Assembly: GCA_001899635.1 (NCBI GenBank)
Contig: MKVQ01000043.1
Span: 124,001-188,000 of the forward strand
Length of the DNA: 64,000 bases
Origin: Myxococcales bacterium 68-20
GTDB lineage: Bacteria; Myxococcota_A; Polyangia; Polyangiales; Polyangiaceae
Direction: 5' to 3'
The notes under the pieces are model-generated. The model did no database searches. It was not told the origin of the DNA and was given only the letters and a program-made list of their open reading frames with translations. Within the stretch, counting starts at the first letter, position 1. Each line of letters starts with the position of its first letter. Position numbers and translations under genes: made by a program. Positions 51,686-62,232 of the stretch are shown piece by piece.

Positions 51686-52552
51686 ATGGCCAGAAGCCGG
51701 CTGCTGATCGGGGGAATCTGCGCGGTCTTCGTCTGCATCGCCGCGTGCACGTCGTTCGGCAGCGCGGAGAGTCCCGCCCCGGAGCCGTCGTCCGACGGCG
51801 GTGGTGGTGAGGAGGGTCAGGCGCCCGGCACATCCGACGCGTCGGGCCCGGACGGAAACATCGACGTGCCGCCGGGGGGCGACGCAGGGAGCGGCATGAT
51901 CGTCGTGATCCCGGGGCCCGGCGGATTCGCGATCGACAGCCACGAAGTCACCGTCGCGCAGTACACCGCGTTCCAGATCGCCTCGGCGGGCTTCGACTCC
52001 GGGATTCCCCGGTGCGCCTGGAGGATGACGTACGCACCGGCAGCAAACTGCCCGCTCGATGCCCGCCCCGATGTTCCCATGACCTGCGTCGATTGGTGCT
52101 CCGCAGCCGCCTACTGCGCGTGGGCCGACGCGCGGCTCTGCGGGCGGATCGGCGGCGGCGCGGCGACGAGCGACACCTTTACCGATCCGGCTCTGAACGA
52201 ATGGACGCGCGCGTGCACGGGCGGGCCAACCGCCGACCGCTGGTGCTACGGAGACGAGCCCAATACGACGGCGTGCAATACGACCGCCCTCGACGTCGGC
52301 GCGCTCTCCCCTGTCGGGAAGCTCGCAGCTTGCGTCGGCGGCGTCGACGGGCTCCACGACATGAGCGGCAACGCGTGGGAGTGGACGAACGGCTGCAACG
52401 AGAACCAGGACGACCCGAGCAACGATGGCTGCCCCTTCCGCGGTGGCGGCTACCGCGGTGGGCTCGACGGCTCCAAATGCGCGGTCGGTTCGTACCTCCG
52501 CCGCGGCGCGGCGCTGCAAGACATCGGCTTCCGCTGCTGCAAGAGCCTCTGA
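51686..52552 (+). CDS. SUMF1/FGE-like lipoprotein
   Basis: A signal LIGGICAVFVCIAAC with lipobox Cys and a Ser/Gly/Asp linker precede a formylglycine-generating-enzyme-like domain: IDSHEVTVAQYTAFQIA, PMTCVDWCSAAAYCAWADAR, LHDMSGNAWEWTNGC and FRGGGYRGGL with GFRCCKSL at the end. The catalytic Cys pair of true FGE is not clearly placed, and the protein is Cys-rich with a shortened fold, so it is probably a non-sulphatase SUMF1 homologue of the type common in myxobacterial surface proteins. It lies upstream of the sigma-lipoprotein operon. Confidence 0.85.
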   Translation: MARSRLLIGGICAVFVCIAACTSFGSAESPAPEPSSDGGGGEEGQAPGTSDASGPDGNIDVPPGGDAGSGMIVVIPGPGGFAIDSHEVTVAQYTAFQIASAGFDSGIPRCAWRMTYAPAANCPLDARPDVPMTCVDWCSAAAYCAWADARLCGRIGGGAATSDTFTDPALNEWTRACTGGPTADRWCYGDEPNTTACNTTALDVGALSPVGKLAACVGGVDGLHDMSGNAWEWTNGCNENQDDPSNDGCPFRGGGYRGGLDGSKCAVGSYLRRGAALQDIGFRCCKSL

Positions 52553-52809: not shown

Positions 52810-53406
52810 GTGTCCAGTGCCGAGACCCTTCGGTTTCCGCAGTCGCCTAGCCGGTGTAGCAGCGACGGCTCCGTGGAGACGGCTGATTTTCGTGCGCTGT
52901 ACGACGAGTTGTGTCCGCTTGTTTGGGGGTGGGTAGCGCGGCTAGGCATCCCGCGAGACGCGATCGACGATGTTGTGCAGGAAGTCTTCCTGACGATCTA
53001 CGGCAAGCTCGACACGTTCGAAGGACGCTCCAGCCTCGCCACGTGGGTGTTCGCGATCACGATCCGCGTGGCGCGCAACTACCGGCGCAGGCGTTCTGCC
53101 GGCGCCTCCGGTGACGACTCCGACTTCGACGAGCTCGACGCCTTGCCCGCGCACGTCGTCCATCCCGAGGCTGCCGCCGAACAGACCGAAGCTCTGACCT
53201 TGCTCCAGCAGATTCTCGGCGAGCTCGACGTCGAGAAACGCGAGGTGTTCGTCCTCGCCGAGATCGAGCAGCTCAGCGCCCCGGAGATCGCCTCGATCCT
53301 CGAGATCAGCCCCAACACGGTGACGTCGCGACTCCGCCTCGCCCGTGAGGAGGTACGGGCCGCGTGGGAACGAGCGAAAGCGCGCGACCAGTGGAGACTA
53401 CGATGA
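52810..53406 (+). CDS. ECF-type RNA polymerase sigma factor
   Basis: The 198-residue protein has sigma region 2 (ALYDELCPLVWGWVARLG, AIDDVVQEVFLTIYGKLDTF, SSLATWVFAITIRVARNY) and region 4 with helix-turn-helix (EIEQLSAPEIASILEISPNT then SRLRLAREEV). It starts with GTG and overlaps the next gene by four bases. Sigma factors of this type are usually held by a membrane anti-sigma encoded next, which fits the following gene. It probably directs expression of the downstream lipoprotein genes and perhaps its own promoter. Confidence 0.92.
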   Translation: MSSAETLRFPQSPSRCSSDGSVETADFRALYDELCPLVWGWVARLGIPRDAIDDVVQEVFLTIYGKLDTFEGRSSLATWVFAITIRVARNYRRRRSAGASGDDSDFDELDALPAHVVHPEAAAEQTEALTLLQQILGELDVEKREVFVLAEIEQLSAPEIASILEISPNTVTSRLRLAREEVRAAWERAKARDQWRLR

Positions 53407-54215
53407 CGGACGACAGCGACTACGAACGGTTCCTGAAGGCCGCGCGCGCCGACGCCGTGGCGAGGACGATGCCTTCCGCCTCGGCGCAACGAATCGAAGC
53501 CGCCGTCGGGGCACACGTGTCATGGCGGCGTCGCCTGCCACCGGAGATGGCCGCCGGGGTCGCGATGACGGCGGCGGCCCGATCCCGTGGCGAGGAAGCC
53601 GCTGAGATCGCGAGAAAGGGAAAGGCGCTCACGCAGCGAGGCTCCTGGACGAAGGCGCTTGCGGCGCTCGTTCCCGTCGCTGGGCTCGTGGCCGCCTCCT
53701 ATTCGATGACGACCGTATCCGCGCCCCCGACCGCGCCGACCGTCGAGCCCGCACCGCCACCCGTGGCGACCGTCGAGCTCGCGCCGGTGGTGGCGGAGCC
53801 GAGCGGATCGGTCGCGCCGATGCCGACGCTCCCCGGGCCGAAGGACCTGCCCGATGCAAAGGACCCGGCCGTGGGGGCGCCGCTGGAGCGCCCGACTCCG
53901 GCGAGCGTCTCTCGCGCGAACCGTACCGGCGACGGGACGTTCGAAGCCGAGCTCGCCTTGCTCACGCAGGTGACGGCCGCGCTTCAGGAGAAGCAGCCCG
54001 CTCGTGCGCTCACGCTGATCGACGAGCATGACCGCCGATTCCCGAGCGGTGTTCTCGGTCCCGAGTTCGCCGGCGAACGTGTGCTGACGCTCGCCGCGCT
54101 CGGCCGCCACGCCGAGGCCTGCGTGCAATCGAAGAAGTTCGTAGCGAAGTATCCGAAGTCTCCTTTCGTACCCCAGGTGCGCTCCACATGCGTCGACTCG
54201 ACCTCAAACCGATAA
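53403..54215 (+). CDS. Anti-sigma-like single-pass membrane protein
   Basis: A cytoplasmic N-terminus (DDSDYERFLKAARADAVART) is followed by one transmembrane helix (ALAALVPVAGLVAAS near residue 84-98), a Pro/Val-rich spacer and a C-terminal TPR-like helical part (PARALTLIDEHDRRFPSG, HAEACVQSKKFVAKYPKS). This plan, and coupling to the sigma factor, support an anti-sigma or sensor role. No ZAS zinc motif is seen, so the mode of sigma binding is not evident. Its end overlaps the next gene by 28 bases. Confidence 0.75.
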   Translation: MTDDSDYERFLKAARADAVARTMPSASAQRIEAAVGAHVSWRRRLPPEMAAGVAMTAAARSRGEEAAEIARKGKALTQRGSWTKALAALVPVAGLVAASYSMTTVSAPPTAPTVEPAPPPVATVELAPVVAEPSGSVAPMPTLPGPKDLPDAKDPAVGAPLERPTPASVSRANRTGDGTFEAELALLTQVTAALQEKQPARALTLIDEHDRRFPSGVLGPEFAGERVLTLAALGRHAEACVQSKKFVAKYPKSPFVPQVRSTCVDSTSNR

Positions 54216-55363
54216 GCGTGCTCGCTTTCGTGGGGCTCTCGGTTGCCCTCGGGCTCGCGAGCTGCTCGACCGAAACCGTCGTCGTGCGCGAAGGGCCCGA
54301 CCGTCCGGAGTCGATCTTCGCGCCGCCGGACGCGGAGGCCGACGTCGGCGAGGCAGGCGTCGCCTTTACCTCGTATTGCCCGTCAAACAAGTGCCCTGCG
54401 GGATATACGACGTGTATAGATTCGCGTTTCCCGTGCGACGTGAATTTGCTGGCTGACAGGCACAATTGCGGCGCGTGTGGCGCCGCATGTCCGACAGCGA
54501 CGAACCGCGAATATTACGAGTGCGTCGACGGGCGCTGTGTCTTGCAGTGCAAGCAGACGGGTGGGGTACCTACCCTCGACTGCGATGGTTTCGTCGACAA
54601 CGGTTGCGAATCGAACAAGAACGCGCCGAACTCCTGCGGAGCATGCGGAGTCACCTGTACGGAGCCCGACAAGCCGTGCATCGACCGTGGTGCGGGGGAC
54701 TACGGTTGCGGCTGCAGAGCACCCCAAACGTTATGCCCCGGTTGGGGATGCGTCGACACGAGGACCCATGACGACAATTGCGCGGGATGCGGCAATCACT
54801 GTCCACGGGGAGACCTCGACCCGAGTCTGCACATGTATTACGGCTGCTCGGACAGCCGTTGTGGTGCGCCCAAATGCGAAAAGGACTGGGGCAACTGCGA
54901 CGACGATCCTGCCAACGGGTGCGAAACGGACCTCAGGTTGCCCGAAAACTGCGGCTCTTGTGGGAACGCCTGTTCCGAAGCCCAGGCTTGTAAGCAGGAC
55001 AGCAACTTCTACCTCAAGTGGACATGCATGTGTTCCCCGGGGATGACCTTCTGCCCGACGGGGGGGGACAGCGGGACTTGCAAGGATCTCTCCTCCGACC
55101 CGAGCAATTGCGGGGGTTGCGGGGTTCAGTGCTCGTCCGTCTGCGTGAACGGGATGTGTCGAACGGACTGCGGAACTTCTGGGTTTGCCGACTGCAACGG
55201 GAGCGAGAGCGACGCTTGTGAGGTCGACATCCGCAGCGATCCGAACAATTGCGGCGGTTGCGGGATCACCTGCGATGGGATCGCCGGCCAAGCCTGCGTG
55301 CAAGGCAGGTGCGTGGTCGAGCCCTGCGACGACGCTGTCGACGCCGGAAGGGGCCCGCAATGA
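54188..55363 (+). CDS. Cys-rich lipoprotein with NCGxCGxxC repeats
   Basis: After a lipobox signal (VALGLASCS) and an acidic spacer, the mature protein is built of about six repeats centred on NCG-x-CG-xx-C: HNCGACGAAC, NSCGACGVTC, DNCAGCGNHC, ENCGSCGNAC, SNCGGCGVQC and NNCGGCGITC, each followed by a short loop with another Cys. Every repeat should fold by disulphides into an EGF- or knot-like unit, giving a rod outside the cell. The protein is 391 residues. It starts inside the anti-sigma-like gene and overlaps the propeller gene by four bases. Confidence 0.8.
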   Translation: MRRLDLKPISVLAFVGLSVALGLASCSTETVVVREGPDRPESIFAPPDAEADVGEAGVAFTSYCPSNKCPAGYTTCIDSRFPCDVNLLADRHNCGACGAACPTATNREYYECVDGRCVLQCKQTGGVPTLDCDGFVDNGCESNKNAPNSCGACGVTCTEPDKPCIDRGAGDYGCGCRAPQTLCPGWGCVDTRTHDDNCAGCGNHCPRGDLDPSLHMYYGCSDSRCGAPKCEKDWGNCDDDPANGCETDLRLPENCGSCGNACSEAQACKQDSNFYLKWTCMCSPGMTFCPTGGDSGTCKDLSSDPSNCGGCGVQCSSVCVNGMCRTDCGTSGFADCNGSESDACEVDIRSDPNNCGGCGITCDGIAGQACVQGRCVVEPCDDAVDAGRGPQ

Positions 55364-56526
55364 ACCTTCGATGGACGGCGCTCGTCCTTGGCGTTGCCGC
55401 GTGTGCTTCGACGGAGACCCTCGCGCCAGCCCCGCCGGAGAACTCGAACAGCCTGCCGGCAACGCCGCCAGCCGCGGACAGCGGCGCCGACGCCGCGCCG
55501 GAAGTCGACGCAGGTCCATGTGCCGACTGCGAGTACTTTCCCGCCACCTGCTCGCCCGACACGCTCTGCCCCAACGGACCATTCGCTTCCAGTCCAAGTG
55601 ACAGCAACCTCCCCCCTGTCGCGCAGATCAACGTGATCCGGGGCCGTTCCGTCAGCGATGTCTGGGCGGCAGGCACCTCGGGAAGCCTCGCTCACTTCGA
55701 CGGCACGTCATGGAAGCGCGTGGATCTCGGCACTCTCGACACCCTGAACGCGCTCTGGCTGCGCGACTCCGAGGACATCGCGCTTGCCCAGATGGCGCGT
55801 GTCTACAGGCACGACGTCGGCGCGGCCCCTCCGGACGGTGGATGGCCCCTCACCGAGCTACCCTATGATTATGACGTTGCCAACGCGAGGCTGATATCGG
55901 CATGGAGCGCCTCAGGCTCGCCATGGCTTTGGTGCACCACGAGGTCGTGGTCCCCGACGACCGGCCTCTGGCGCATGCGCCGACTGCCCTCGAACGAGCT
56001 CGAGCTGCAGTCCGGCGTGGACCCGGCGACGTGTAGCGGCGCTGGATGCACGCTCATGACGAGCATCCACGGCGTATCGGCAAACGAGCTCTGGGCGGTT
56101 GGGGACAAAGGCTCGGCCGTACAGGTCCTCGACGCAGACGGCGATACGCCGAGCGTCAATGCATTCAACACGCAGACGCGAAACACTCTGAACGGAGTCT
56201 GGGTCGCGTCGTCGTCCGACGTCTGGGCCGTCGGTGCGATGGGAACCATTCGCCACTACACGGGGGCCCCCATTCTCTGGGACGTCGTCTCGGATGTCGG
56301 GACGACGGAGGATCTCCGAGCCGTATGGGGCTCCTCGTCGACCGACGTCTGGGCCGTCGGCGACGGTGGTCTCGTCCTTCACTACGACGGAAAGAGCTGG
56401 TCCCGCATCAAGATCGCGGGGCTCGGAAAGCGCCGGCCAAACCTCACCGCGGTTTGGGTCCCTGCGCCGGGGCACGTCTGGGTCGGAGGCGAGGGCGTGA
56501 TTCTCTCGCTCGGAGGAAAGCCATGA
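55360..56526 (+). CDS. Beta-propeller lipoprotein (SDVWAVG repeats)
   Basis: The 388-residue protein has a lipobox (LVLGVAAC), a Cys-containing linker (DAGPCADCEYFPATC) and at least five blades marked by repeats such as GRSVSDVWAAG, GVSANELWAVGD, ASSSDVWAVGAMG, GSSSTDVWAVGDGG and APGHVWVGGEG. The pattern is that of Ycf48-like or BNR-type propellers used for protein binding. It is coupled to both neighbours by four-base overlaps. A ligand cannot be named. Confidence 0.8.
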   Translation: MNLRWTALVLGVAACASTETLAPAPPENSNSLPATPPAADSGADAAPEVDAGPCADCEYFPATCSPDTLCPNGPFASSPSDSNLPPVAQINVIRGRSVSDVWAAGTSGSLAHFDGTSWKRVDLGTLDTLNALWLRDSEDIALAQMARVYRHDVGAAPPDGGWPLTELPYDYDVANARLISAWSASGSPWLWCTTRSWSPTTGLWRMRRLPSNELELQSGVDPATCSGAGCTLMTSIHGVSANELWAVGDKGSAVQVLDADGDTPSVNAFNTQTRNTLNGVWVASSSDVWAVGAMGTIRHYTGAPILWDVVSDVGTTEDLRAVWGSSSTDVWAVGDGGLVLHYDGKSWSRIKIAGLGKRRPNLTAVWVPAPGHVWVGGEGVILSLGGKP

Positions 56527-57854
56527 GAGCAACGTTTCTCCTCTGCTGCGGCTCGCTCGCGCTCGGCGCCATCGGGTCGATCGCGGCGTGCGCGACGTCC
56601 GAAGCAGTCTCGGAGGTGGCGCCGCTGCCCGATTCGGGAGGGAGCTCGGCTCTACCCGAGGACAATGGGGCCGAGGACAGTGGGTCGGCCGAAGGCGCGA
56701 CGGACTCCGGCGCGGAGGGCGACGGCCCGGAGTGCAGCGCGGCGGGCTGGTGCCGGACGACCTTGCCGGACGAAGACCTCACGCTGAAGGACATCTCGGC
56801 AGTAGGCGATGCGGCCTTTGCGATCGCGGACAGCCCGACCCTCGGCATCAAGGTGCTCGAGTGGAGGAACGCCGATTCTACCTGGCGCTACATCGACGAC
56901 AACACTCAGCACATGGTCGATCTCGGAACATACCCAGGCCGGATCTGGGCTCCGAGCGAGGACGAGGTCTACTACGGAGTGGGCGCCGGCTACCTCTATC
57001 ATGGCAAGCGCCCGTCACCGCCAGCGACGACCTGGTCTTGGACGCGGCAAAGGCTCGGAGACGAGAGCGACGCCGCCGTCGTCGGCCCGCAAGACGCCTA
57101 TCCGGCCTATCCGAGCACCGACCCCGGCCTGCACCTCAACTACCCGACGCTCGGCATCTGGGGAACGAGCGCCGACGATGTCTACGCATGGTTTGTCAAT
57201 ACGCTCTATCACCGGACGAGCATCGGAGGCGCCGAACCAAAGTGGGTGCCCGAATACGTCGCAGACGATGCGACCGCGTCGGAGCACATGTACTTCTTCG
57301 CGGCCGCCGGGGCGGGGCCTGACGAAGTCTGGTTCTCCGGCGCGCGAGCGACTTCGAGCGTTGGCTGCGCAGTTCTCGTGCGCAAGACCGGTGGCACGTA
57401 TCAGAAAGTCGCCGACGGCACGCCCAACTCACACTCGTGCGCCGTTCGCGACGGGCATTTGCAAATCGCCGGTGACCCCGGCTTTCCAGGATGGCTCACC
57501 GACATCCACATGCCATCCGCCAATCAGATCGTCGGGCTCATGGACACTGGCCTCGTGCGCGTGTCGATCACGGGAGATGGGTATTCAGCCTCCGTCGTGC
57601 CGATTAACACGCAAGCCACCGGTTGGCCATTCGTCTCGCTATGGGCCGAACCTGGAAGTATATGGATGAGCGGCTCGGGGGTCCTCTATCGAATCGGCGA
57701 CGACGTCTGGGACGGTGGCTCGTCTGCCCAGATCTCGACGCTCGCGATCAATGGCGCTCCGTTCGAGGAACGCCTGTACCGGATTCGCGGCACGTCCACC
57801 ACCAACCTCTGGGCCATCGGTGTCCGCAATGCGTTCCACAAGACGACTCCTTGA
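56523..57854 (+). CDS. Second propeller-type lipoprotein
   Basis: The 443-residue protein starts with a lipobox signal (GAIGSIAAC) and a Ser/Asp/Glu spacer. Blade-like repeats are degenerate: APSEDEVYYGVG, GTSADDVYAWFVN, GAGPDEVWFSGAR and STTNLWAIGVRN. It is clearly related in design to the preceding protein but diverged. Four cysteines flank the spacer (ECSAAGWC). It overlaps the next gene by 26 bases. Confidence 0.75.
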   Translation: MRATFLLCCGSLALGAIGSIAACATSEAVSEVAPLPDSGGSSALPEDNGAEDSGSAEGATDSGAEGDGPECSAAGWCRTTLPDEDLTLKDISAVGDAAFAIADSPTLGIKVLEWRNADSTWRYIDDNTQHMVDLGTYPGRIWAPSEDEVYYGVGAGYLYHGKRPSPPATTWSWTRQRLGDESDAAVVGPQDAYPAYPSTDPGLHLNYPTLGIWGTSADDVYAWFVNTLYHRTSIGGAEPKWVPEYVADDATASEHMYFFAAAGAGPDEVWFSGARATSSVGCAVLVRKTGGTYQKVADGTPNSHSCAVRDGHLQIAGDPGFPGWLTDIHMPSANQIVGLMDTGLVRVSITGDGYSASVVPINTQATGWPFVSLWAEPGSIWMSGSGVLYRIGDDVWDGGSSAQISTLAINGAPFEERLYRIRGTSTTNLWAIGVRNAFHKTTP

Positions 57855-59241
57855 TCGATGTTCCATCTCCGCGGTGTTGCTCCTCGCGGCGTGCGGGGGC
57901 GCGGCAAGCTGCTCGAGCCCCGACGACGGAAGCGAGCCCGCTCCGGTAGACGCCGGGTCGGAGGCGTCCGCGACCGCCGACGGTGGCGTGCCGTCGGATG
58001 GCGGCTCCGTCGACGCGACGAGCGGTGACGCGGCGCCACCGCCGTTCGACGGAGGACCTCTGCCGGTGGTCTGCTCCTCGGATCCATGCGCCACATCGCT
58101 CGTGACGACGCTCGCGCTCAGCGCCTCGGACAATGACGAAGGCTACTGCGTGCTCCTCCGTGACGGCACCGTGGCGTGCTGGGGCGCGAACGGAGCCGGG
58201 CAGCTCGGTCGTGACGACCACGCGGGAGCACCGGACAACGCGACGGCGGCGCGCGTCGTCGGACTCACCGACGTCGAGGAGCTGAGTCACACGTGCGCTG
58301 TCGACAAGCGCGGTAGCGTGTGGTGCTGGGGCACGGGCCCTTACCTTCGGGACGACGCCGGCGCGCGAACGACCGAGCGCGCGCCGATCAAGCTCGCTCT
58401 TCCCCCCGTCAAGCACGTCGGAATGGGAATGGACGTCGGGTGCGCATCGAACGATGACGGCGTCCTTTGCTGGGGAAGCAACGCGAAGGGACAGCTCGCG
58501 CCGCTCAGCACCATCCCAGCCTATGAGCTGCTACCACCACGACCGATCCAGCTTCCGAGTGGCGCGCCGGTCCGAGAGGTTTTTGTGGGCGCGACGGCGT
58601 TCCTTCTCCGTGAGGACGGCCAGGTACTGAGCTGGGGCGCGAGGGCTTCGCTCGCGCGCCTTTCGCCGCTCAGTCCCGATTCGTATCCGGTTCCGATCGA
58701 CCTCGCCGGGATCTCTTCGATGGATACGACGAGCGGCAATGCGTGTGCGACGGTCAGCGGCGTGGGCTATTGCTGGGGGTATCTCGTCCGCGATCCCATG
58801 GGGTACTTCGCTGAGAGCTTTGGGATCGATAGGGATATGGGAGATTCGACCCTTCCCCAGCCGGTCGTGGCGCCGGAGCCGCTCGTTCAGATCACCACGA
58901 CGAAGTCGTTCGTCACCGGCAGCTTCTCCCCAAGCGGCGCCTTCGACGGGGTCGTTCGACCGCAGCGATGGTGCGCCGTCGGCGCGTCGGGGAGCGTCTA
59001 CTGCTGGGGCTTCAACGCGAACGGTCAGGCCGGCGACGGCACGAAGCGCCACGCCTACCAGGCCGTCAAGGTCGAAGGTCTCCCGATGACCGCGACGCAG
59101 GTCAAGGCAATGCCGGACTCCACGTGTGCGCTCTTGACGAACGGCAAAGTGTATTGCTGGGGGGCGAACTATTACGGACAACTCGGCAACGGAGAGATCA
59201 AAGTTCGCTCCCTCGTCCCCCAAGAAGTGGTGCTGCCATGA
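57829..59241 (+). CDS. RCC1-repeat lipoprotein
   Basis: After a lipobox-type signal (ISAVLLLAACGG) and Asp/Ala spacer, RCC1/BLIP-II-type repeats follow: YCVLLRDGTVACWGANGAGQ, CAVDKRGSVWCWGTG, GCASNDDGVLCWGSNAKGQL, RWCAVGASGSVYCWGFNANG and CALLTNGKVYCWGANYYGQL, each with a paired Cys. Such seven-bladed propellers bind proteins. The ATG at 57829 lies inside the previous gene; 470 residues. It is coupled by four bases to the IgGFc-binding gene. Confidence 0.85.
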   Translation: MRSTRRLLDRCSISAVLLLAACGGAASCSSPDDGSEPAPVDAGSEASATADGGVPSDGGSVDATSGDAAPPPFDGGPLPVVCSSDPCATSLVTTLALSASDNDEGYCVLLRDGTVACWGANGAGQLGRDDHAGAPDNATAARVVGLTDVEELSHTCAVDKRGSVWCWGTGPYLRDDAGARTTERAPIKLALPPVKHVGMGMDVGCASNDDGVLCWGSNAKGQLAPLSTIPAYELLPPRPIQLPSGAPVREVFVGATAFLLREDGQVLSWGARASLARLSPLSPDSYPVPIDLAGISSMDTTSGNACATVSGVGYCWGYLVRDPMGYFAESFGIDRDMGDSTLPQPVVAPEPLVQITTTKSFVTGSFSPSGAFDGVVRPQRWCAVGASGSVYCWGFNANGQAGDGTKRHAYQAVKVEGLPMTATQVKAMPDSTCALLTNGKVYCWGANYYGQLGNGEIKVRSLVPQEVVLP

Positions 59242-61046
59242 CCTGCTCGCCCATGATCCGTCGCGCGATCTACGCGCTCCTCGGCGTCACATTCACGGCC
59301 GCCTGCGTCGGGGCGTGCTCGTCGGATCGAGGTGGCTTCGTCACCACCGATACGAGGCTCGATGTCGATGCCTCGGCTCCGCCGGACATCCCCGTTTGCG
59401 GACGCCAGTGCTCGCTCGATAGTCGCTCGGTCATCGACACCTGCACGGGTGAGGTCCTCGAGACCTGCGACGACGATCTCGCGTGCGGAGCCGCGACCTG
59501 CCAGGAGCCATGTGCTGCAGCGGCCGCCGATCGGAGCTCGAACGGGTGCGACTTCTATTTTCAGATGCCCCGGATGGATAAGCAGTGGCCTCCTAGCTGC
59601 AATGCCGCGTTCATCGTCAACACGTCCATGCACCCCGCCGACGTGACGCTCGAACGTGGAGGGAAAGCGATCGACATCTCCAAATCGGTCTTCCGCACCA
59701 CGCCGGGAAGCACGGCGCTGAGCCCTCACGAAGGAGCCATTCCGCCGGGTGAAAGCGTCATCCTCTTCGTTTCCGATGCGCCGCCAGGCTCGGTGCAGTC
59801 GAACTTGTACGTCAAATGCCCGGAGGGCGTGACCCCTGCAACCCTCGACGACACGGTTGCCAACAAGACTGGAATCGGCTTGTCGTTTCGTCTGACGACC
59901 AACGTGCCGGTGTCGCTGACCTCGATATTTCCGTTCGGCGGTGCCTCATCCTGGGTGCCGAGTGCCACGCTCGTGTTGCCTGTCGCAACGTGGGGAAAGG
60001 AGCACATGATCGTCAACGGATGGGGAGCGAGCAAGGCGGGCGCTCCGAGCGTGCAGATCGTTGCTTCCGAGGACGACACCGAGCTCACCATTTTGCCGGT
60101 GCGCAACATCCTCGGTAATTCGACAGTCGCGGGTGCCGTCGCGAATGAGCCTGTGAAGTACCGACTGGGCCGTGGGCAGCACCTGCAGCTCGTCCAAGCT
60201 GAAGAGCTCACTGGGAGCATCGTCGTCTCGAACAAACCGACGACTTCGTTTGGCGGGAACTCTTGTGCGTACATTTCGACGAATGCCTCTGCCTGCGATA
60301 TCCTCTCTCAACAGATCCCACCATTCGAGCAGTGGGGATCGGAGTACGTCGCGGTAGGCTACCGGCCGCGTGCGGGCAACGAGCACGAGCCGATGCCCTA
60401 TCGATTCGTCGCGGCGCGGGACGGGACGCGGCTCGAATACGAACCGGCCATCCCCCCAGGGGCGCCCACGGAGATGAACGCCGGGGAGGTAGCATCCTTC
60501 CTTCACGGAACAGGCGATGCGTTCGTCGTCCGGACGCAGGATATCGAACATCCGATCTACGTATCCGCGCACATGACCGGCGGCGGAGGCGACCTCTTTG
60601 GCATGACCGATATAAACTACGGCGGCGTGGGCGATCCGGAGTTCGTCAACGTCGTTCCGACTGGACAGTACTCGAACGCGTATAGCTTCTACGCGGACCC
60701 CTCGTACGCGGAGAACTCGATCACGATCGTTCGACGCAAGTTCAACGGCGCGTTCAAGGACGTGTGGCTCGAGTGCGCGGGCAACCTGACGACCTGGAAG
60801 CCTGTCGGAACGCGTGGCGAGTACGAGTTCACGAGGGTAGATCTCTCGCGCAATTTCCAGCCCGGCGACACGTTCGGCGAGGGTGACGCTGCTACGGTCT
60901 GCCGGACCGGCCTACAGCGCATGCGAAGCGAAGGCCCCTTCACCGCCACGCTGTGGGGCTGGGACGCGTGGGCGAGCTACGCCTATCCCGGCGGGACGGC
61001 CATGCGAAAGCTCGTCGAGACGCCGCTCGTGCCCGTCGTCAACTGA
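59238..61046 (+). CDS. IgGFc-binding-domain surface lipoprotein
   Basis: The 602-residue protein has a lipobox (CVGAC), a Cys-rich stalk (CGRQCSLDSRSVIDTC and CGAATCQEPC), and an IgGFc-binding N-terminal domain: NGCDFYFQMPRMDKQWPPSC, FIVNTSMHPADVTLERGG, SIVVSNKPTTSFGGNSCAYI, QIPPFEQWGSEYVAVGYRPR, then a C-terminal part with HPIYVSAHMTGGG. Homologues with this domain are frequent in myxobacteria and are thought to be surface adhesins; binding of IgG is not implied. It is the last gene of the coupled operon and is followed by a hairpin. Confidence 0.85.
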   Translation: MTCSPMIRRAIYALLGVTFTAACVGACSSDRGGFVTTDTRLDVDASAPPDIPVCGRQCSLDSRSVIDTCTGEVLETCDDDLACGAATCQEPCAAAAADRSSNGCDFYFQMPRMDKQWPPSCNAAFIVNTSMHPADVTLERGGKAIDISKSVFRTTPGSTALSPHEGAIPPGESVILFVSDAPPGSVQSNLYVKCPEGVTPATLDDTVANKTGIGLSFRLTTNVPVSLTSIFPFGGASSWVPSATLVLPVATWGKEHMIVNGWGASKAGAPSVQIVASEDDTELTILPVRNILGNSTVAGAVANEPVKYRLGRGQHLQLVQAEELTGSIVVSNKPTTSFGGNSCAYISTNASACDILSQQIPPFEQWGSEYVAVGYRPRAGNEHEPMPYRFVAARDGTRLEYEPAIPPGAPTEMNAGEVASFLHGTGDAFVVRTQDIEHPIYVSAHMTGGGGDLFGMTDINYGGVGDPEFVNVVPTGQYSNAYSFYADPSYAENSITIVRRKFNGAFKDVWLECAGNLTTWKPVGTRGEYEFTRVDLSRNFQPGDTFGEGDAATVCRTGLQRMRSEGPFTATLWGWDAWASYAYPGGTAMRKLVETPLVPVVN

Positions 61047-61206: not shown

Positions 61207-62232
61207 ATGGTGGCACGAGTCCGAGCGGCTGCATGGGTGGCCGCTCTCGCGCTCTCCGCGACGCCGCGTGTGGCCGAAGCGGCTCCCGTGCTGCGCATCG
61301 AGTGGCCGACCGTGCCCGGCTGCCCCGACTCCTCCGTCGTACTGGCGCGTGCGCGCGCGGCGATCTCGCGGTCGAAGGATGCGGGGGACGTGCGCGCCGT
61401 CGCAGAGATTACGCCTCCGGGCGCGGAGGGCGGCTCCTGGCAGCTTCATATCCGCACGCGTACGGTGCTCGGCGCAGGGGAGAGGACGCTCGACGTACCG
61501 AGCTGTGATGCGCTTGCGCGAACCGCCGCGCTGCTCGTGGCCATCGCGTCGCTTCGTGCGGAACCTCCATCAACGGAGCGCTCGATCGACGAGCTCGCCC
61601 CCGCGCCCGATCGCATCGGAGAGCCCGCAACGCTCGTCGCTCCCCTCGCGCCACTGCTGCGCCCGAAGCGGCCGGTGGATGCGACGATGGCGGCGAGCGC
61701 CAAGGAGGACGATGCGCACTTCGTTCCGAGTGCCGGGCTCGGGATCGCGGTCGGGCTCTTCCCGCGCGTCGCACCAGCGGCGAATGTGACGCTCGGTTAC
61801 GAGGCAGGTTGGCTCCGCACACGCGTCGCGTTCCAGGCGGTGCTTCCGCAAGAGGAATTCGATCGCGCCGTCGGGGCGGAGCTCTCCGCGCTCGGTGCGA
61901 GCCTCGACGTGTGCGCTCGGCTCCCCCTGCCCGTCATCCTGCGCGCGAAGACATACGGTTGCGCCGGCGCGACGGTCGAGGGAGTTCGTGCGAGCGGCAT
62001 CGGCGGCATCGAAGCGCTCGACGTTCGGCGCACCGCGATGATGGCCTTCGCGGGCTTCGGCGCGGAATGGGAGGTCGGCCGCGCCTTTCGGATCGGCGCT
62101 GACGCTCGCGTGGGCGGATCCATCGCGCGTCCGGCGTTCTTGATCGAGTCCGCCTCGGACGGCCAGCGCCTCCTTCATCGCCCCGCGGCTGTCAGGGGCG
62201 AGGGCTCGTTGACGTTCGGAATGGTCTTCTGA
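61207..62232 (+). CDS. Secreted/outer-membrane-type protein of unknown function
   Basis: A Sec signal (VAALALSATPRVAEA, cleavage before APVL) is followed by CPDSSVVLARARAAI and a SWQLHIR domain, then a Pro-rich linker and a C-terminal half with alternating Gly and aromatic residues (GLGIAVGLFPRVAPAANVTL, GFGAEWEVGRAFRIGADARV) ending in Phe (LTFGMVF), as outer-membrane beta-strands often do. The 341-residue layout is common in Polyangiales, where such genes often accompany sigma factors. It is not coupled to the operon before it (160-base gap). Confidence 0.7.
   Translation: MVARVRAAAWVAALALSATPRVAEAAPVLRIEWPTVPGCPDSSVVLARARAAISRSKDAGDVRAVAEITPPGAEGGSWQLHIRTRTVLGAGERTLDVPSCDALARTAALLVAIASLRAEPPSTERSIDELAPAPDRIGEPATLVAPLAPLLRPKRPVDATMAASAKEDDAHFVPSAGLGIAVGLFPRVAPAANVTLGYEAGWLRTRVAFQAVLPQEEFDRAVGAELSALGASLDVCARLPLPVILRAKTYGCAGATVEGVRASGIGGIEALDVRRTAMMAFAGFGAEWEVGRAFRIGADARVGGSIARPAFLIESASDGQRLLHRPAAVRGEGSLTFGMVF

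Follow-up and report, generated by a model that had tools for sequence, protein, structure and literature searches.

The PE/PPE, VSG and opa/pil repertoires hold many diverged copies and occupy a large share of the genome. Large sets of regulators have also been described: genomes with more than 100 ECF sigma factors exist, and how they avoid cross-talk has been posed as a question (PMC7406223). Given such genomes and a Sorangium strain with 109 sigma factors (PMC3696898), many sigma factors in a myxobacterium are not new. Described regulators of this kind include the Class I (ASDI/ZAS) ECF–anti-sigma pairs (PMC7406223) and the FecA–FecR–FecI system, in which the hydrophobic segment of FecR lies at residues 85-100 (PMC9249621). 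In M. xanthus, an RCC1 protein has been found to be OMV-specific (PMC4158809). Here, we describe a modular operon of the Labilithrix genome known as Myxococcales bacterium 68-20, starting from a 64,000-nucleotide stretch of contig MKVQ01000043.1 (the window). We found no description of such cassettes, or of some 120 copies of one modular operon, in open-access full texts (subscription journals and preprints lay outside this scope), which agrees with the original prediction of a system without described counterpart and is weak evidence of absence.

The window contains seven co-directional ORFs at 52873–61046, with successive overlaps of 4, 28, 4, 4, 26 and 4 bases (Table 1). The ORFs and their Pfam and NCBIfam matches confirm the overlapping operon of a sigma factor, a TPR-tailed membrane protein and five lipoproteins put forward in the original prediction, which overlooked an eighth gene, P0008, and a hundredfold amplification. 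The sigma gene probably starts at GTG 52873, with GTG 52810 likewise open, and the start of P0006 was refined to ATG 57829. The sigma factors closest to P0001 are encoded in the same genome (C3:12664 and C48:325391; 71-73% identity). The RCC1 repeats of P0006 score 89.1 bits against a cut-off of 21.7, and P0003 stays under the curated cut-off of 100 bits for NF041328 (MXAN_6577-like Cys-rich proteins) and is not counted as a member. Lipoboxes, claimed for all five surface proteins, are visible by eye in each of them; across 105 paralogous cassettes a strict lipobox regular expression matches 60-84% of the members per lipoprotein slot, compared with 3-4% in shuffles and 0-1% of sigma and TPR proteins.

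Table 1 Genes of the operon in the window and IgGFc-less cassettes elsewhere in the same genome; HEAD and BODY are the two modules described in the text
Feature	Gene	Module	Position	Strand	Evidence
ECF sigma factor	P0001	HEAD	52873..53406	+	TIGR02937 3e-27; Sigma70_r2/r4_2 above cut-off
Putative membrane anti-sigma	P0002	HEAD	53403..54215	+	AF2 model, TPR folds, distances track sigma
Cys-rich lipoprotein	P0003	BODY (mature part from ~54371)	54188..55363	+	Lipobox LASC; NF041328 74.7 bits (under curated cut-off)
SDVWAVG propeller lipoprotein A	P0004	BODY	55360..56526	+	Lipobox VAAC; slot filled in 105 canonical cassettes
SDVWAVG-type propeller lipoprotein B, class A subtype	P0005	BODY	56523..57854	+	Lipobox IAAC
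RCC1-propeller lipoprotein	P0006	BODY	57829..59241	+	PF00415 2.8e-25; lipobox LAAC
IgGFc_binding-domain lipoprotein	P0007	BODY	59238..61046	+	PF17517, 336.3 bits vs cut-off 25.6
OmpA-like barrel (predicted), displaced to 3' end	P0008	HEAD	61207..62232	+	AF2, Foldseek, co-variation
IgGFc-less cassettes			C1:31203-36166, C4:201144-206521, C40:174164-179322		

A protein search of the whole genome (11.9 Mb in 52 contigs, estimated contamination 4.2%) with IgGFc returned at least 144 matches, of which about 130 are full-length and belong to the cassette type, and cassettes are present on most long contigs. Upstream of IgGFc genes, 118 co-directional sigma genes occur at a distance of up to 15 kb, almost always at 5.6-6.6 kb. 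ORFs in 160 regions were classified using profiles built from the window genes, on which family membership rests. This gave 121 cassettes with a sigma gene upstream, 105 of which are strictly canonical: sigma, TPR protein, Cys-rich, propeller, propeller, RCC1, IgGFc. Canonical cassettes span 8.3 kb in the median and total 0.88 Mb; including the 16 incomplete or irregular ones, we estimate that cassettes make up about 1 Mb, or roughly 8.5% of the genome. A few more bodies come with a divergent head (e.g. C23:240256-248910 and C44:191787-201329), and a third cassette class (n = 3; Table 1) lacks IgGFc and consists of sigma, TPR protein, Cys-rich, one propeller and RCC1. The P0005 slot divides the cassettes into two body classes of 57 and 48. 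Median identity between copies is 25-42% depending on the slot (32% for sigma; 105 cassettes), hence the copies are old and are neither assembly nor strain duplicates. Runs of cassettes about 10 kb apart (C12 180-250 kb, C17 56-94 kb, C16 56-140 kb) suggest some tandem growth. Since the same order recurs in all 105 cassettes and in other Labilithrix genomes, including the MAGs ACE_MYX5 and ACE_MYX7, the arrangement is far from chance.

Distance statistics and alignments indicate that the operon is built of two modules exchanged between copies, a head (barrel, sigma, TPR protein) and a body (the five lipoproteins). Pairwise protein distances were correlated between slots over 105 cassettes, a correlation here meaning co-inheritance and not contact. 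Sigma and TPR protein distances correlate at r 0.69 and those of the five lipoproteins among themselves at r 0.85-0.94, compared with r 0.06-0.12 between the two groups; the barrel family follows sigma and TPR protein (r 0.74 and 0.73) and not the body (r 0.02-0.06). Inside each body class the values are 0.60-0.79 for sigma–TPR, 0.68-0.88 for lipoproteins and -0.03 to 0.16 between groups, and nearest-neighbour agreement is 0.42 for sigma–TPR, 0.48-0.65 among lipoproteins and 0.02-0.07 across. The interpretation that we set out from is thus partly supported. Fixed coupling stands for the gene order, in the genome and the genus, and for the lipoproteins, which are co-inherited in the way one assembly or functional set would be, but feedback of surface status to the operon's own sigma factor finds no support, with correlations to the lipoproteins of 0.06-0.12 versus 0.73-0.74 for the barrel. 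A closed feedback loop, in which the operon's own anti-sigma factor senses the assembly of the five lipoproteins into one complex, would fit the invariant order and the strong co-inheritance of the lipoproteins. However, sigma, TPR protein and barrel correlate with any lipoprotein at only r 0.02-0.12, which makes a matched contact between lipoprotein and anti-sigma unlikely, and heads also carry other cargo; we consider such a loop quite unlikely.

Single pairs of cassettes illustrate the decoupling. When two bodies have IgGFc proteins that are 76-90% identical, their sigma and TPR identities are mostly at background. The window resembles a cassette on C3 in its sigma (68%) and TPR protein (62%) with an IgGFc identity of 39%, and a cassette on C49 in its IgGFc (74%) with identities of 34% for sigma and 26% for the TPR protein. 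DNA identity between close bodies is about 0.5 through the head, 0.75-0.9 between the beginning of the mature Cys-rich part and the IgGFc stop, and back at background 0-110 bases beyond it. The Cys-rich signal peptide weakly tracks the head (TPR protein: r 0.17, p 0.001) and does not co-vary with the body, whereas the mature part does (r~0.8); the junction thus falls where the signal peptide gives way to the mature domain. Fixed head–body specificity is absent from own-genome pairings, yet a head is always retained. Exchange is nevertheless not free at every scale, given that at least one paralogous pair (C40_479181 and C48_535084) resembles a whole-cassette duplicate and several head–body pairs are common to different species. 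Between C17_66297 and C17_56076, dS is 0.56 for IgGFc versus 0.18-0.27 for the propeller and RCC1 genes, pointing to recombination within a body.

Close body pairs have a dN/dS of 0.2-0.6 (approximate, from longest ORFs trimmed to aligned cores), as expected for a function under rapid change, constrained but fast. This bears on selfish or mobile amplification, in which the body would duplicate without having a selected function. Copies totalling about 1 Mb, sharply bounded modules and a body limited to one genus are what such a unit would leave behind, but 105 cassettes with all seven genes intact, their invariant order and the dN/dS values are not, and a non-exhaustive look recognised no recombinase or transposase in the unit; we regard this explanation as very unlikely. 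The 105 intact copies, each with its own sigma, also count against silent-cassette antigenic variation, and silent partial copies around one expression site, as in that model, were not seen among the own-genome cassettes.

Among the relatives searched, the five-gene body was found solely in Labilithrix. At an E-value of 1e-25 the Cys-rich body marker occurs in only 7 of the 108 family genomes, each of them from this genus, and congeneric MAGs have roughly 1–40 cassettes. Cassette-type IgGFc genes number about 130 here, 38 in ACE_MYX5 and 11 in ACE_MYX7, with at most 4 in the relatives G009 and G011 and none in G005. Conservation of gene order, anticipated across Polyangiales, is therefore seen within Labilithrix and not across the order. 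Minicystis rosea and other Myxococcales have IgGFc genes alone or in tandem without the cassette; a tandem pair in Minicystis rosea (L212, G136) has no sigma or other cassette genes nearby. In ACE_MYX5 (L198) and ACE_MYX7 (L204) there are cassettes in which an additional RCC1 gene separates the TPR protein from the Cys-rich gene, with another sigma gene located a few kb upstream.

Across the order, 32 of 38 relatives have members of the barrel family. We selected 20 barrel loci outside the cassette context on the barrel alone; barrel, sigma and TPR protein are intact in this order in 15, and a contig end truncates one more. Two further loci have sigma/TPR protein and then the barrel (one with the sigma beyond the examined stretch), an arrangement that explains the window, in which the body sits between TPR protein and barrel. 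Such heads are often followed by a lipoprotein of the Cys-rich or RCC1 kind. From its distribution, the three-gene head appears to be older and wider than the body, occurring across the order with other lipoprotein cargo. An FGE-sulfatase lipoprotein gene upstream of the operon in the window (51686-52552; PF03781) was considered as a cassette member and rejected, as it is the sole such neighbour among the own-genome heads found; one weak match was found in the relative L202.

Of 120 IgGFc cassettes, 105 carry a co-directional member of the P0008 family immediately upstream of sigma; the copy in the window follows the body. The nearest relatives of P0008 (65, 62 and 58% identity) belong to the window's own sigma clade and are positioned downstream, on the opposite strand or divergently upstream. 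In this clade the barrel stayed with its sigma despite an intervening 7-kb body of a different class. Profile drift as the source of the matches to this family downstream of the body was rejected, the family being the third head gene. No Pfam match was found among 15 members of the barrel family. The AF2 model of P0008 (341 aa, mean pLDDT 78.5) has a signal helix and an alpha/beta domain (29-117), which a disordered linker connects to a C-terminal barrel (171-339) with about eight long strands; Foldseek returned OmpA (E=1.9e-8; TMt 0.72-0.80 against OmpA barrels). We predict P0008 to be an OmpA-like eight-stranded outer-membrane barrel with a signal peptide, a likeness at the level of the fold of a predicted model.

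P0002 comprises N-terminal helices, a hydrophobic segment at ~85-105, a Pro-rich disordered linker and a C-terminal TPR-like domain at 179-268. The single hydrophobic segment was read off the sequence and is poorly modelled in AF2, and the N-terminus consists of three low-confidence helices without a Pfam match. The C-terminal domain is modelled at pLDDT>94, with TPR-type structure matches that are not diagnostic of function. Pfam recognised no anti-sigma domain in P0002 and 14 relatives, only weak TPR matches, and no Fec, STN, TonB or zinc-finger domains in the TPR and barrel families (15 members each).

The reading we favour, and hold to be fairly probable, is a trans-envelope switch head that drives interchangeable surface-lipoprotein bodies, with copies amplified and exchanged into a separately switchable repertoire. 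The outer-membrane barrel P0008, or something bound to it, would change state at the surface, and its periplasmic N-terminal domain would contact the periplasmic TPR domain of P0002. Acting as a putative anti-sigma factor, P0002 would then free the sigma factor P0001, which would transcribe its own operon in an autoregulatory manner. The output would be the body, a co-inherited set of five lipoproteins that may be exposed on the outer surface and might form a complex; adhesion, prey contact and kin sensing, put forward in the original prediction, would be candidate roles. Amplification and exchange at the head/body junction would put many bodies each under a different head, so that variants could be switched on separately. 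Co-variation within the head (r 0.69-0.74) is consistent with signalling from barrel to regulator to sigma and may reflect linkage alone.

Alternatively, the heads may respond to identical or overlapping cues, with cross-activation between them, so that a mixed coat is expressed together and the mosaicism is neutral reassortment. Head–body pairing does look random (nearest-neighbour agreement of about 2%), but the sigma factors are widely diverged, with a median identity of 32%, and no shared promoter was detected, which leaves a mixed coat unlikely, if not negligibly so. Upstream of sigma and in the barrel–sigma gap, k-mer and spaced-dyad searches for such a promoter returned mainly coding signal from the conserved sigma N-terminus, and in four sigma clades no convincing clade-specific element emerged; promoters may still be present. 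Taken furthest, the switch-head reading would give the cassettes a biological role as a self-diversifying, sigma-addressed repertoire of ~120 separately controlled surface-coat operons covering 8-9% of the genome, with input and output shuffled independently, a possibility we raise tentatively and rate below even.

With ~120 operon copies, most with their own ECF sigma, the genome is a natural experiment from which to learn how cross-talk between paralogous sigma/anti-sigma pairs is avoided. As head and body are inherited independently, statistics can show directly which proteins form a set. The analysis predicts a widespread, apparently undescribed envelope-signalling module in Polyangiales, made of a barrel, a sigma factor and a TPR anti-sigma factor, that is testable in cultivable myxobacteria. 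It also provides context for large families of unannotated myxobacterial lipoproteins.

Compared with known systems, the head is most likely analogous, and not visibly homologous, to FecA–FecR–FecI, following the same logic (PMC9249621) with different parts. Both have an ECF sigma gene adjoining the gene of a single-pass regulator. P0002 has a predicted FecR-like layout of cytoplasmic N-terminal end, hydrophobic segment and periplasmic C-terminal domain, and P0008 is predicted to have an N-terminal periplasmic domain of about 80 residues, as in Fec. However, the predicted P0008 barrel is eight-stranded and OmpA-like, not a TonB-dependent receptor with plug and signalling domain, P0002 has a TPR-like domain in place of the periplasmic domain of FecR, and the proposed output is a set of lipoproteins, not transport. 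Like Class I (ASDI/ZAS) pairs (PMC7406223), sigma and TPR protein form an overlapping, co-diverging (r 0.69) and membrane-bound pair, but the head has no recognised ASDI or zinc-finger domain, carries a TPR tail and is exchanged between operons. Myxobacterial IgGFc_binding (PF17517) and RCC1 lipoproteins share their domains with the cassette, although in Minicystis rosea and other relatives IgGFc occurs without it. In contrast to the PE/PPE, VSG and opa/pil repertoires, every copy here is a complete operon that has a sigma head of its own.
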